The position numbers were made by a program, and so were the translations under genes. Shown piece after piece: positions 14,575-18,598 of a stretch of 48,640 nt of DNA (positions are counted from its first letter, which is position 1; each line of letters opens with the position of its first letter). The stretch is taken from NCBI GenBank assembly GCA_025464445.1, contig JAODLY010000035.1, positions 1-48,640 on the forward strand, given 5' to 3'. The DNA is from Rhodoglobus sp. GTDB taxonomy: Bacteria > Actinomycetota > Actinomycetes > Actinomycetales > Microbacteriaceae. A model generated the notes under the pieces. That model was given only the letters and a program-made list of their open reading frames with translations. It was not told the DNA's origin and searched no databases.

Positions 14575-15582
14575 ATGTCTGATCCACTAAGGGTGATCGT
14601 CGTCGAAGACGATGCCGATGTCGCGCAGTTTTCCAAGATGGTTCTCGAGAAGCGGGAACTGTGCATCGTGATGACGATCGCCGACCCGCGCCTCGTGCTC
14701 TCCGCGCTCGAGACATTCCAGCCAGACGTGATCGTGAGCGACATCGAGATGCCCGGGATGTCTGGGCTCGACCTCATCACGCAGGTGCGGGCAGCGCGCC
14801 CCGGCATCCCCATCATCCTCATGACCGCGCACGCGTCACTCGATTACGCGCTGACAGCCCTGCGTAGCCAGGCCGACGAGTTCCTGACAAAGCCGGTGCC
14901 GTCAGCCGATCTCATCGCCCACGTCACGCGGCTCGGCGAGGCCGCCAGGCTGAAGAAGGCGGCAACGCGCCACCAGGTGGTGCTCGCCATCGGCGCCCAT
15001 CCCGACGACGTGGAGATCGGTGTCGGCGGCACGCTCGCCGCCCATGCCGCAGCGGGTGATTCGGTCACGATCCTCACGCTCTCTGCGGGCATGCGCGAGG
15101 GTGGCATCCAGAACGCGTGGAACGAAGGCTCGCGTTCGGCAGCGATCATCGGCGCGACGCTCATTCTCGAGCCGAACTACGAACCATTCCTCAGCCCGAC
15201 CGAGCCGACGATCAGCACCATCAAGAAGGTCATCGACGAACTCGACCCGACGATCGTCTACGTGCACAGCAAGAACGACCAGGGCCAGGATCACAGGGCG
15301 GCCCACGAGGCCACGCTCGCCGCTGCTGGCAGCGCCCGCACGATCGCCTGCTTCCAGGGCACGGGCGCGACTGTCGACTTCAGGCCGAACCGTTTTATCA
15401 CCATCGACGGTTTCACCGACACCAAGATCGCCATGCTCGCCTGCTTCGGCCTGCTCGGCGGGCGCACGGAGTACCTCGAGGCCGACTTCTCGCTCGCCAC
15501 CGCCAGGTCATGGTCGCGCTACGGCCAGGGTGCCTATTGTGAGCCACTCGAGATCGTGCGCGATTCAGCGCAACTGGCCTGA
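14575..15582 (+). CDS. Receiver domain fused to PIG-L/LmbE zinc deacetylase
   Basis: 335 residues with two clear domains. Residues 5-122 are a CheY-like receiver: acidic pair D12/D13, phosphoacceptor Asp56 in IVSDIEMPG, Thr84, Lys106 in LTKPVPS. Residues 134-325 are a PIG-L/LmbE domain: AHPDDVEIGVGG gives predicted zinc ligands His142 and Asp145 and base Asp144, and QDHRAAHEA supplies the third ligand His (His244). PIG-L enzymes remove acetyl groups from N-acetylglucosaminyl compounds (MshB, mycothiol conjugate amidase, GlcNAc-PI deacetylase). Phosphorylation of Asp56 could switch the enzyme. GGGGGG precedes ATG 14575. First of five signalling genes on this strand. Confidence 0.92.
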   Translation: MSDPLRVIVVEDDADVAQFSKMVLEKRELCIVMTIADPRLVLSALETFQPDVIVSDIEMPGMSGLDLITQVRAARPGIPIILMTAHASLDYALTALRSQADEFLTKPVPSADLIAHVTRLGEAARLKKAATRHQVVLAIGAHPDDVEIGVGGTLAAHAAAGDSVTILTLSAGMREGGIQNAWNEGSRSAAIIGATLILEPNYEPFLSPTEPTISTIKKVIDELDPTIVYVHSKNDQGQDHRAAHEATLAAAGSARTIACFQGTGATVDFRPNRFITIDGFTDTKIAMLACFGLLGGRTEYLEADFSLATARSWSRYGQGAYCEPLEIVRDSAQLA

Positions 15583-15584
15583 TC

Positions 15585-16022
15585 ATGACAATTACGCAGG
15601 ATGCGGCACCGACAATGGATTGGCAGCACGTGACGATGAGCGAGAGTGTGCCAGGCGGTCCCATGACCATGGTACGAGTGCTCATCGTCGAGGACAGCGA
15701 AGACCAGGCCGCCCTGCTTCGGCAATACTTCGAGCGCGCGGGATGCGTCGTCACAACTGTCGCGAACGCGGAAGCGGCCATCACGACCTACCGCGCCGAC
15801 CCGCCTGACCTCGCTGTCATCGACCTGCTGCTCCCCGGGATGGGCGGGGAAGAACTCTCGACCCGCCTGCGGGCTGACCTGCCAGGGTGCCGCATCGCCA
15901 TCACATCAGTGCTCGACGCGTGCGACTTTCCCGAGGCTGACGCCCTGCTTCCCAAGCCTTTCACGGGTGCCGATGTTCGTGCCGCGCTCGGCAAGGCACT
16001 GCAAGGGTGGCGAGCCGCATGA
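15585..16022 (+). CDS. Stand-alone receiver (CheY-like) protein
   Basis: 145 residues. Receiver fold from about residue 29: E36/D37, phosphoacceptor Asp80 in VIDLLLPGMGG, Thr107, Lys124 in LPKPF. No output domain. The first 27 residues are non-conserved; ATG 15663 (MTMVRVLIVED) is the tighter domain start and has a weak AGGCGG upstream, so the true N-terminus may be there. Begins 2 nt after the deacetylase fusion and overlaps the next receiver gene by ATGA (16019-16022). Confidence 0.85.
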   Translation: MTITQDAAPTMDWQHVTMSESVPGGPMTMVRVLIVEDSEDQAALLRQYFERAGCVVTTVANAEAAITTYRADPPDLAVIDLLLPGMGGEELSTRLRADLPGCRIAITSVLDACDFPEADALLPKPFTGADVRAALGKALQGWRAA

Positions 16023-16396
16023 CCCGCGACACCGTCGTGATCGCGGACGACGACCCCGACATCCGGTCGCTCGTCGCGATAGCCGTGGCCAAAGCCGGCC
16101 TCGAGCTGCTCGCGAACGTGGCTGACGGCCGCGCGGCGCTTGCCGCGATCCTGCAGTACCACCCCGATCTCGCCATCCTTGACGTCTCGATGCCCGAGAT
16201 GACGGGGGTCGAGGTCGTGCGCGCGATCAGGTCAGACGAATCGGTCGGCGACGTGCGCGTGCTCCTGCTCTCGGCATCCGTCGATGAAGCTGCCAGAAAC
16301 GTGGGGATGGAGTCCGGCGCGGACTACTTCTTCCCGAAACCGTTCAGCCCCCGCGATCTCGCGGCGTGGCTTGCGGTCGGAAAGGAAGACCGATGA
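16019..16396 (+). CDS. Stand-alone receiver protein, paralogue of 18188-18598
   Basis: 125 residues, a receiver only: D10/D11/D12 in VIADDDPD, phosphoacceptor Asp55 in ILDVSMPE, Lys107 in FFPKPFSP. It is strikingly like the receiver at 18188-18598: both share ADDDxDIRxLVAxAVAxxGLEL and KPFSPRxLA. ATG 16019 overlaps the preceding stop, and its own stop overlaps the kinase start (ATGA, 16393-16396), so it is coupled to the kinase and is probably its direct target or phosphate sink. Confidence 0.9.
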   Translation: MTRDTVVIADDDPDIRSLVAIAVAKAGLELLANVADGRAALAAILQYHPDLAILDVSMPEMTGVEVVRAIRSDESVGDVRVLLLSASVDEAARNVGMESGADYFFPKPFSPRDLAAWLAVGKEDR

Positions 16397-18156
16397 GCGG
16401 GTTCTACTCACGCGTGAAGGACCGCATGGTCGCGGAACTCGACCGGCCGTCGCCGTTCCTCAAGCAATCGGCGACACTGGCCGTGATGGCGGCCGGACTG
16501 CTGATCGTGCTCCTGGTTCCCGATGTCGACTTCACCGACCAGTCGATCGGCTATGTCGGGATCGGGATCGTCGCCGTTGCGACGGTGCTGGCCGCAGCCT
16601 TCTCGCGCTGGACCATGCTCGCACGACTCGCGGTGCTGATTCCGGTGCTCGACCTATTCGGCCTCGGGGCCTTCCGAGCGGGAACCGGGGGGACCGAGTC
16701 ATTGTTCGCCTCGGTGCTCATCCTCCCGGTCGTCTGGATCGCGTCGGTCGAGGGCCGCAGAAACGTGATCTACGCCGGCGTCGCTACATCGCTCGCGCTG
16801 ATGGGGCCATATGCCTTCACCCGCACCCTCCCGGCAGACACCACTGAGTGGTTGCGACTCGTGTTCACCCCTGTCGTCTTCATTCTCGCCGCTGCCATCA
16901 TCAACGAGCTGGCCAGGCAGAGTCGCCAGCAGTTCCACGACATCAACGAGCTCGCGGAAGACAAGGAGCGCATGCTGCAGCGCACAGTCGAATATGCCGC
17001 GCAGTTGCAGGAAAGCGAATCCAAGTTCAGGGCATACGACCGCATGTTCCGCACGATTTGGTCTGCCGTTACGGAGCAGGCGGTCATTGGGACGGACGTC
17101 ACCGGCCTCATCGACGCGTGGAATCCCGGCGCCGCCAAGATCCTCGGCCCTACCTCCGACGATGCCGAAGACAAGCTCCACATCTTCGACTTCCACCTGC
17201 CTGAGGAGCTGGAGGCCCGCGCCCGGGAACTCAACTACCCGCCGGGCGAGACCGTGCTCAATCCCGGCTTCTCGGCGCTCGTCGAATCGGCAAGACTCGG
17301 CCAGGCCGAATCCCGCGAATGGACTTACGTGCGCGCCGACGGCTCCCACGTGCCGGTGCAGCTGTCGGTCACGAAGCGCTCCGATGACGAGGGCCACACG
17401 ATCGGGTACCTGTTCGTGGCATCCGATGTCACGCAGGCGCGCGAAGTGTCTCGCCTTAAAGACGAGTTCGTCGGGCTCATCTCCCACGAACTGCGCACCC
17501 CACTCAGTTCGATCCTCGGCTATCTCGAGCTCATGCGTGACGACGAAGACAACCCGCTGTCCGCAGAGCACCTCCAGTACCTCGGCGTCGCGGAGCGCAA
17601 CGCCCATCGGCTGCTTCGCCTCGTCGGCGACCTGCTGTTCACCGCGCAGGTCGAGTCGGGCAAGTTCCCGCTCGACGCCAGGGACGTAACCCTCGACACG
17701 ATAATCACCAACGCCGTCGAATCGGCGCGTCCGGTGGCGGATGCCGCGGGCATCACCCTCAACGGCGTGCTCCCCGATGACCCCGCAGTCGTACACGGCG
17801 ACCCGCTGCGCCTGGCGCAGGCCGTGGACAACCTGGTCTCGAATGCCATCAAGTTCACGCCGCGCGGCGGCACCGTGACGATCGCGCTCGCCGTGGACGA
17901 CGAGCACGCCGTTGTGACCGTGCAGGACACGGGCATGGGCATCGCGGCATCCGAACTCGACAAGCTCTTCTCGCGGTTCTTCCGCGCGTCGACCGCCACT
18001 CGCAACGCCGTGCCCGGAGTCGGCCTCGGCCTCACCATCACCAAGGCGATCGTGACCGCCCACGAGGGCGAGATGGGCGTGGAGAGCGAAGAGGGCGTCG
18101 GCACGAAGTTCAGCCTGACCCTTCCTTTGGCCGCCGTGGCGGCCGTCGCACAGTGA
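16393..18156 (+). CDS. Membrane-bound PAS-containing histidine kinase
   Basis: 587 residues. Six hydrophobic segments at about 27-43, 53-70, 73-95, 104-118, 125-143 and 157-172 form an N-terminal integral-membrane sensor with little extracellular sequence. A coiled coil follows (172-215), then a PAS domain (about 218-345, TDVTGLIDAWNPGAAKILG), HisKA with His365 in ISHELRTPL, and the ATPase domain with Asn484 (LVSNAIKF), DTGMG (512-516) and GVGLGL (542-547). AAAGGAAG is the RBS. No receiver is fused, so phosphate must pass to the neighbouring receivers. Confidence 0.93.
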   Translation: MSGFYSRVKDRMVAELDRPSPFLKQSATLAVMAAGLLIVLLVPDVDFTDQSIGYVGIGIVAVATVLAAAFSRWTMLARLAVLIPVLDLFGLGAFRAGTGGTESLFASVLILPVVWIASVEGRRNVIYAGVATSLALMGPYAFTRTLPADTTEWLRLVFTPVVFILAAAIINELARQSRQQFHDINELAEDKERMLQRTVEYAAQLQESESKFRAYDRMFRTIWSAVTEQAVIGTDVTGLIDAWNPGAAKILGPTSDDAEDKLHIFDFHLPEELEARARELNYPPGETVLNPGFSALVESARLGQAESREWTYVRADGSHVPVQLSVTKRSDDEGHTIGYLFVASDVTQAREVSRLKDEFVGLISHELRTPLSSILGYLELMRDDEDNPLSAEHLQYLGVAERNAHRLLRLVGDLLFTAQVESGKFPLDARDVTLDTIITNAVESARPVADAAGITLNGVLPDDPAVVHGDPLRLAQAVDNLVSNAIKFTPRGGTVTIALAVDDEHAVVTVQDTGMGIAASELDKLFSRFFRASTATRNAVPGVGLGLTITKAIVTAHEGEMGVESEEGVGTKFSLTLPLAAVAAVAQ

Positions 18157-18187
18157 GCATCGTCATCTTCGAGACATCGGGGGCCTG

Positions 18188-18598
18188 ATGGATTCGCCGC
18201 TTCGCAGCGTGATCGTGGCCGACGACGACGCCGATATCCGCACCCTCGTCGCGATGGCCGTTGCCCGCTCGGGTCTCGAACTCATCGACGAACTGGGCGA
18301 CGGCGACTCGGCGTGGGATGCGATCCAGACATTCGTGCCAGACATCGTGTTGCTCGACGTCGCGATGCCCGGCAAGACGGGCCTGGAGATCAGCCGTCTT
18401 ATCCGCGGGGATGCCCGGCTGAGCGCCATGCGCGTGATCGTCATCTCCGCCGCGGTGGAAGATGCGGCGCGGCAGGCAGGGCTCGACGCCGGAGTCGACG
18501 AGTACCTCTTCAAGCCGTTCAGTCCACGCAAACTGGCTGATCGCTTGGGTGCCGTGGCGGTGGAGATCGACGCTCGCGGGATGCAACGCGCCCTGTGA
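18188..18598 (+). CDS. Stand-alone receiver protein, paralogue of 16019-16396
   Basis: 136 residues, receiver only: ADDD pocket at 11-14, phosphoacceptor Asp57 in LLDVAMPG, Lys109 in LFKPFSP. It is closely related to the receiver that precedes the kinase, so the kinase is flanked by a duplicated pair. Starts at ATG 18188, 31 nt after the kinase stop, after a G-rich RBS (GGGGG). Last gene of the signalling island. Confidence 0.9.
   Translation: MDSPLRSVIVADDDADIRTLVAMAVARSGLELIDELGDGDSAWDAIQTFVPDIVLLDVAMPGKTGLEISRLIRGDARLSAMRVIVISAAVEDAARQAGLDAGVDEYLFKPFSPRKLADRLGAVAVEIDARGMQRAL

Follow-up and report, generated by a model that had tools for sequence, protein, structure and literature searches.

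Receivers with enzymatic outputs are of a known kind, with CheB and PleD as examples, and glycosyltransferase, phosphatase, PIG-L deacetylase and ligase reaction types are known to co-occur in the mycothiol and bacillithiol pathways. Here we analysed a gene of Rhodoglobus sp. that encodes a receiver domain fused to a PIG-L domain and lies in a 48,640-nucleotide stretch of DNA (contig JAODLY010000035.1 of assembly GCA_025464445.1; hereafter the window), where it is followed by genes for stand-alone receivers and a histidine kinase. A first-pass annotation had taken this run of genes for a signalling island in which the kinase may control a sugar deacetylase directly by phosphorylation. Among described proteins, BshB and MshB (BshB PDB 2ixd and 6p2t) have the fold, the zinc ligands and the general base in common with the window PIG-L domain, and for the C-terminal half of the window protein BshB is the best structural match and ranks among the best by sequence. 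Unlike BshB, however, the window protein is fused to a receiver and has no equivalents of Arg53, Arg109 and His110. CheB (1a2o) and PleD (1w25), both Foldseek matches, likewise combine an N-terminal receiver with an output of enzyme fold and have no DNA-binding domain, but the output fold of the window protein is a different one and active-site residues have been lost in its lineage. We consider it moderately probable that the window fusion acts as a response regulator that has kept a phosphorylatable receiver while the deacetylase chemistry of its PIG-L half has been lost or fundamentally changed, the output being binding.

Both domains of the fusion exceeded the Pfam cut-offs (REC, residues 7-117, E 1e-26; PIG-L, residues 137-250, E 1.9e-18). 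The two-domain AlphaFold2 model of the window protein (41 rows) had a mean pLDDT of 92.5 and a pTM of 0.71, and a homologue from a full cluster as described below (locus L047) modelled equally well, with a pLDDT of 93.7. Foldseek returned BshB (2ixd, E 4.6e-13) and TT1542 as the best solved structures and single receiver domains for the receiver half; GalB (5cgz), a hydratase with the same fold, was among the structural as well as the sequence matches. The receiver displays the fold, acidic pocket, phosphoacceptor Asp, Thr/Ser and Lys of its family, with D12, D13, D56, T84 and K106 all intact; Asp56 and Lys106 had been named before, and Thr84 is added here. The PIG-L half has the LmbE/PIG-L fold with the HxDD and distal His metal site, and the zinc ligands H142, D145 and H240 and the base D144 are retained. 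The earlier description of its HPDD and distal His motifs as intact is correct for these four residues, but the first distal His (BshB H110, MshB H144) is replaced by G237, and the conserved Arg (BshB R53) at position 181 is also substituted, by Ala. The window protein thus carries A181, Q236, G237 and T263, positions at which the rows from full clusters have R181 (103/103), R236 (78/103), H237 (103/103) and P263 (103/103). A181, Q236 and G237 align to Arg53, Arg109 and His110 of BshB (2ixd), and alignment of a full-type protein gave the same register. According to passages of PMC4101496, R53A abolishes the activity of BshB, H110A, R53K and R109K significantly reduce it, and MshB without His144 has an activity of 1% or less.

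We scored seven residues (H142, D144, D145, R181, H237, D239 and H240) across relatives of the fusion and related them to the gene neighbourhood. A total of 154 loci gave 159 hits with 147 different sequences, and 144 rows were left after a spurious second hit in L058 and two receiver fragments (L079_1 and L094_1) were dropped. Rows were termed reduced if none of the three profiles for biosynthetic genes (ATP-grasp, PHP and GT2) occurred within 8 kb, 4 of the 41 such rows being located on short contigs. Every one of the 103 rows that have at least one biosynthetic gene within 8 kb retained all seven residues, the tandem copies L135_1 and L136_2 having been placed by hand with the non-full rows (otherwise 103/105), and so did 16 of the 41 other rows, three of these 16 on short contigs; R181 had been added to the set after the clade of the window protein was inspected, and the seven-residue count is not blind. 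In the tree of the fusion proteins, the window protein fell into a clade of 22 rows (support 99) that consists mostly of reduced forms (hereafter the reduced clade). A181 and W182 were present in all 21 listed rows of this clade and also in the 22nd, L207, and M287 occurred in 21/21, while H237 was left in 8/21 and P263 in none. Other losses within the clade are D144N in L137, L146 and L186, D239S in L142 and L144, and H142R, D145E and H240S in L155. A separate reduced pair, L195 and L201, has L or S at position 181 and D at 237; this lineage separately lost the equivalents of R181 and H237 as well as the biosynthetic genes.

The receiver of the window clade is under stronger constraint than the deacetylase half, which is the reverse of the pattern in two groups from full clusters. 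Identity groups and pairs for the ratio of nonsynonymous to synonymous substitution rates (dN/dS) were hand-picked from the tree, with L207 excluded from the reduced group of 21 rows. The mean pairwise identity in this group was 0.693 for the receiver and 0.626 for PIG-L, the receiver being higher in 186 of 210 pairs, compared to 0.670 and 0.752 in full group 1 (receiver higher in 9/325) and 0.585 and 0.762 in full group 2 (0/136). An independent reduced group of six rows gave 0.874 for the receiver and 0.770 for PIG-L (receiver higher in 15/15), and the pair L195-L201 gave 0.810 and 0.636, respectively. The corresponding values for the proteobacterial rows were 0.330 and 0.569 (0/36), and Blastococcus displayed no contrast (5/15). 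Among close pairs, dN/dS was higher for PIG-L than for the receiver in 8 of 9 reduced but in 0 of 7 full pairs, and was nearly equal for both halves in a mixed pair (L151, L152). Since dN/dS of the PIG-L half stays below 0.45, this half is not a pseudogene and is retained for something. The full receiver signature was found in 21 of the 22 rows of the reduced clade, whereas ten rows with biosynthetic neighbours fail the strict receiver criterion. One of these ten has a frame break (L079_2) and four have milder changes (L084, L089, L091 and L092); the remainder (L095, L097, L098, L099 and L101) look like true pseudo-receivers beside intact deacetylase residues. L090 and L102, without biosynthetic neighbours, also fail the criterion.

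The operon in the window passes from the fusion directly to the receivers and the kinase. No ATP-grasp, PHP or GT2 gene was found near the fusion in the window, and its own genome (99.6% complete) yielded only partial matches of 27-35% identity for ATP-grasp and GT2, PHP not having been searched there. This reduced form is common to several genus and family mates. In the genomes G007 and G013, a window-type copy stands immediately before a full-type copy and a whole cluster, and within the genus seven genomes have the window type only, three the full type only and two both, while the other 15 lack a match at E 1e-60. A tree built from 49 of the 106 kinases placed the window kinase in a group of 15 rows (support 97) that comprises kinases from reduced as well as full clusters of its own genus and of three further family members. 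The simplest history would be a tandem operon of which different species lost different parts. On the evidence of neighbourhoods, tandem copies and the kinase tree, the proposed island appears to derive from a biosynthetic cluster by reduction and not to be a stand-alone system, and we judge it unlikely that a stand-alone signalling island was the ancestral state. A reduced operon in the metagenome-assembled genome RYN_85 (L026:7905-19374) includes four kinases of the same family and three stand-alone receivers. At L094:9986-10480, a receiver 55% identical to that of the window continues in frame into a different output, which we take to resemble the start of an RsbU/SpoIIE-type phosphatase.

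The fusion itself is widespread. A scan of species genomes for relatives gave at least 594 pattern matches, at least 562 of them encoding a relative. The best 80 loci were retained, among them loci from Microbacteriaceae, Cellulomonas, Blastococcus, Proteobacteria, Myxococcota, Thermoleophilia and a Rhodothermales metagenome-assembled genome. Fused relatives, with identities of roughly 32-70%, are spread across many genera and several phyla. Because the fusion recurs in this manner, a frameshift or assembly artefact was ruled out, and the fusion is real and conserved. Within the genus, 12 of 27 genomes contained it, as did at least 65 of 398 genomes of a family sample (both at E 1e-60) and, with an alignment used as query and the own genome counted, at least 3 of 396 genomes of a phylum sample; the family and phylum counts are lower bounds, as scoring was limited to five candidates per genome. 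No plasmid-borne relatives were found at E 1e-40. In Leucobacter sp. Ag1 (L079:9938-10941), the receiver is encoded in another frame than PIG-L ahead of an otherwise full cluster, a break that represents a frameshift in a single genome or a sequencing error. No description of a receiver-PIG-L/LmbE architecture or of PIG-L with ATP-grasp was found in searches of a library of open-licence full-text papers, as judged by titles and abstract openings, in agreement with the earlier remark that no described system of this form is known.

Neighbour-cluster profiles were run against the 80 loci, 79 of which had an anchor. Within 8 kb of the fusion, ATP-grasp was present in 61 of the 79 loci, GT2 in 57, both in 54, PHP in 51 and a kinase of the window type in 45, while all three biosynthetic genes were lacking in 14. 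In Microbacteriaceae, the genes usually follow one another as fusion, ATP-grasp, PHP phosphoesterase, membrane GT2, receiver(s) and kinase; tested representatives were assigned to PF15632 with a PylC-like N-terminus (ATP-grasp), PF02811 (PHP) and PF13641 (GT2). Outside the window, the fusion usually heads an ATP-grasp/PHP/GT2/receiver/kinase cluster. The nearest NCBIfam model for the GT2 proteins of two full clusters was PgaC_IcaA (TIGR03937), a model of polysaccharide synthases, for which no gene occurs near the window fusion. As the scores of 130 and 124 bits are far below the curated cut-off of 422, a poly-N-acetylglucosamine (Pga/Ica) system proper was rejected. Full clusters resemble the mycothiol and bacillithiol pathways in their reaction types but rely on a membrane GT2 and an ATP-grasp protein.

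In four proteobacterial loci (L072:6974-9812, L073:12-2224, L081:6831-9759 and L083:6894-9829), Pfam identified genes for an H-NOX protein and a hybrid histidine kinase that lie upstream of the cluster in divergent orientation, neighbours that were not seen beside the window fusion. Three of these loci continue with regulators that share a sequence cluster, and that of L072, the sole one tested, is of the LuxR type. The H-NOX neighbours suggest control of the cluster by nitric oxide in these four loci. Proteobacterial clusters are also adjoined by TPR proteins (L089:8422-9747, L091:8568-9920, L074:14643-16046 and L072:13543-14784), which are possibly outer-membrane exporters; their matches to PgaA and BcsC were weak, generic TPR matches. 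Two genes without a Pfam match (L098:14187-16061 and L099:15551-16300) lie downstream of GT2, and each has a cluster-mate in another actinobacterial locus.

The five genes at 14575-18598 of the window are real and form one operon-like run (Table 1). The layout annotated earlier, a fusion, two receivers, a PAS kinase and a further receiver on the same strand, is borne out by the Pfam domains, with E values of 1.5e-17 for HisKA and 1.7e-29 for HATPase_c of the kinase. Pfam likewise yielded no DNA-binding domain in the five proteins, as had been stated. The kinase had been credited with six transmembrane segments, but a crude hydropathy scan gave five above threshold. ATGA overlaps at 16019-16022 and 16393-16396 link receiver A, receiver B and the kinase; because of these overlaps, the starts of receiver B and the kinase were moved to 16019 and 16393 from the GTG starts at 16007 and 16366 in the list of open reading frames. 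Fusion gene and receiver A are separated by 2 bases, and receiver C has a counterpart in the genus mate G008 (L140), where a receiver is also located 3' of the kinase. The kinase, with its HisKA and HATPase domains, shares the gene run with the fusion and is a putative partner for phosphorylation of the receiver.

Table 1. Genes of the receiver-PIG-L locus in the window
Feature	Position	Strand	Basis and remarks
Receiver-PIG-L fusion, 335 aa, one open reading frame	14575..15582	+	Pfam REC and PIG-L
Receiver A, stand-alone	15585..16022	+	Pfam; putative start, internal ATG possible
Receiver B, stand-alone	16019..16396	+	Pfam; ATGA overlap with receiver A
Membrane PAS-HisKA-HATPase histidine kinase	16393..18156	+	Pfam; ATGA overlap with receiver B
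Receiver C, stand-alone	18188..18598	+	Pfam

Taking the fusion as a phosphorylation-controlled deacetylase is plausible for the full clusters, in which the seven residues are invariant, and unlikely for the window, given A181, Q236 and G237. In the window, such an enzyme would be a sugar deacetylase that is active and is switched on or off when the kinase phosphorylates the receiver. The fusion of the two domains, a kinase in the same gene run, the presence of the zinc ligands and Asp144 and a fold nearest to that of BshB all speak for it. However, A181 and G237 replace residues that are invariant in full clusters and, in the passages of PMC4101496 cited above, needed in BshB/MshB; PIG-L is under less constraint than the receiver in the window clade; and the neighbourhood lacks the ATP-grasp, PHP and GT2 genes, so that we regard an active deacetylase as distinctly unlikely. 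It is also rather unlikely, in our estimate, that the protein is an altered enzyme, performing metal-dependent chemistry on another substrate in a new pocket formed by A181-W182 and the loop 262-264. The invariance of A181, W182 and M287 in the listed rows of the clade suggests a new constraint, the matches include GalB, a hydratase that shares the fold, and dN/dS of PIG-L is still low. Nevertheless, L155, L137, L146 and L186 have lost zinc ligands or the base, and a single conserved metal chemistry would hardly tolerate such losses. We give little credence to the view that the protein is a phosphate sink that drains the kinase, or a relic in slow decay after loss of the pathway. In its favour, four receivers accompany one kinase and the biosynthetic genes are missing, but the PIG-L half is under purifying selection and has new shared residues, and a pure sink would have no use for this half.

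Most likely, the window encodes a regulator that can be phosphorylated and whose PIG-L output is non-catalytic or altered; this domain probably works without its former chemistry. Several observations weigh against this regulator with a binding output. The window protein retains every zinc ligand and the general base, and residual or different chemistry is therefore possible; its partner and ligand are putative. Since 16 of the 41 rows without nearby biosynthetic genes retain all seven residues, gene loss is not always paired with catalytic loss. The association in the tree represents few independent events, as active-site loss occurred in at most three independent lineages (the window clade, L195-L201 and L187), and a paired test of gene loss and catalytic loss was not significant and could not have been, with nine supported pairs of which the residues differ in about one. 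L207, a member of the reduced clade, has lost receiver residues too. One of the nine reduced dN/dS pairs (L149, L150) is opposite to the others, reduced rows of Cellulomonas have identities of 0.714 for the receiver and 0.803 for PIG-L (receiver higher in 0/3), and full rows of Cellulomonas lack a clear contrast (26/55).

If the window fusion is such a non-catalytic regulator, its ancestor would have been a paralogue in tandem with an active receiver-PIG-L protein at the head of a polysaccharide-type cluster with ATP-grasp, PHP and membrane GT2 genes, an arrangement that G007 and G013 still have. The window species would then have lost the active copy and the three biosynthetic genes, while the paralogue, the receivers and the kinase stayed. 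Presumably the kinase of the same operon phosphorylates the receiver, and phosphorylation of Asp56 may alter the binding of a partner protein or an amino-sugar ligand by the zinc-holding PIG-L fold, in which case the output would be binding and not deacetylation. With the tandem copies of G007 and G013 hinting at one complex, we offer as a tentative and rather doubtful elaboration that the protein arose as a pseudoenzyme, a phosphorylation-switched, catalytically dead partner of the active receiver-PIG-L protein that gated amino-sugar deacetylation for a surface polysaccharide, and, once the active copy and the pathway had been lost, was kept as a phosphorylation-controlled binder of sugar or protein with A181, W182 and M287.

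The family thus provides two natural experiments, clusters in which the deacetylase residues persist even beside a decayed receiver, and reduced operons in which the receiver persists while deacetylase residues have been lost. Both together make testable how a receiver affects the enzyme fused to it and how an enzyme output turns non-catalytic. In addition, the widely distributed full cluster, of which the searches of open-licence papers gave no description, represents a two-component system built into an apparent amino-sugar or polysaccharide pathway, adjoining in four proteobacterial loci a gene for a predicted nitric-oxide sensor.

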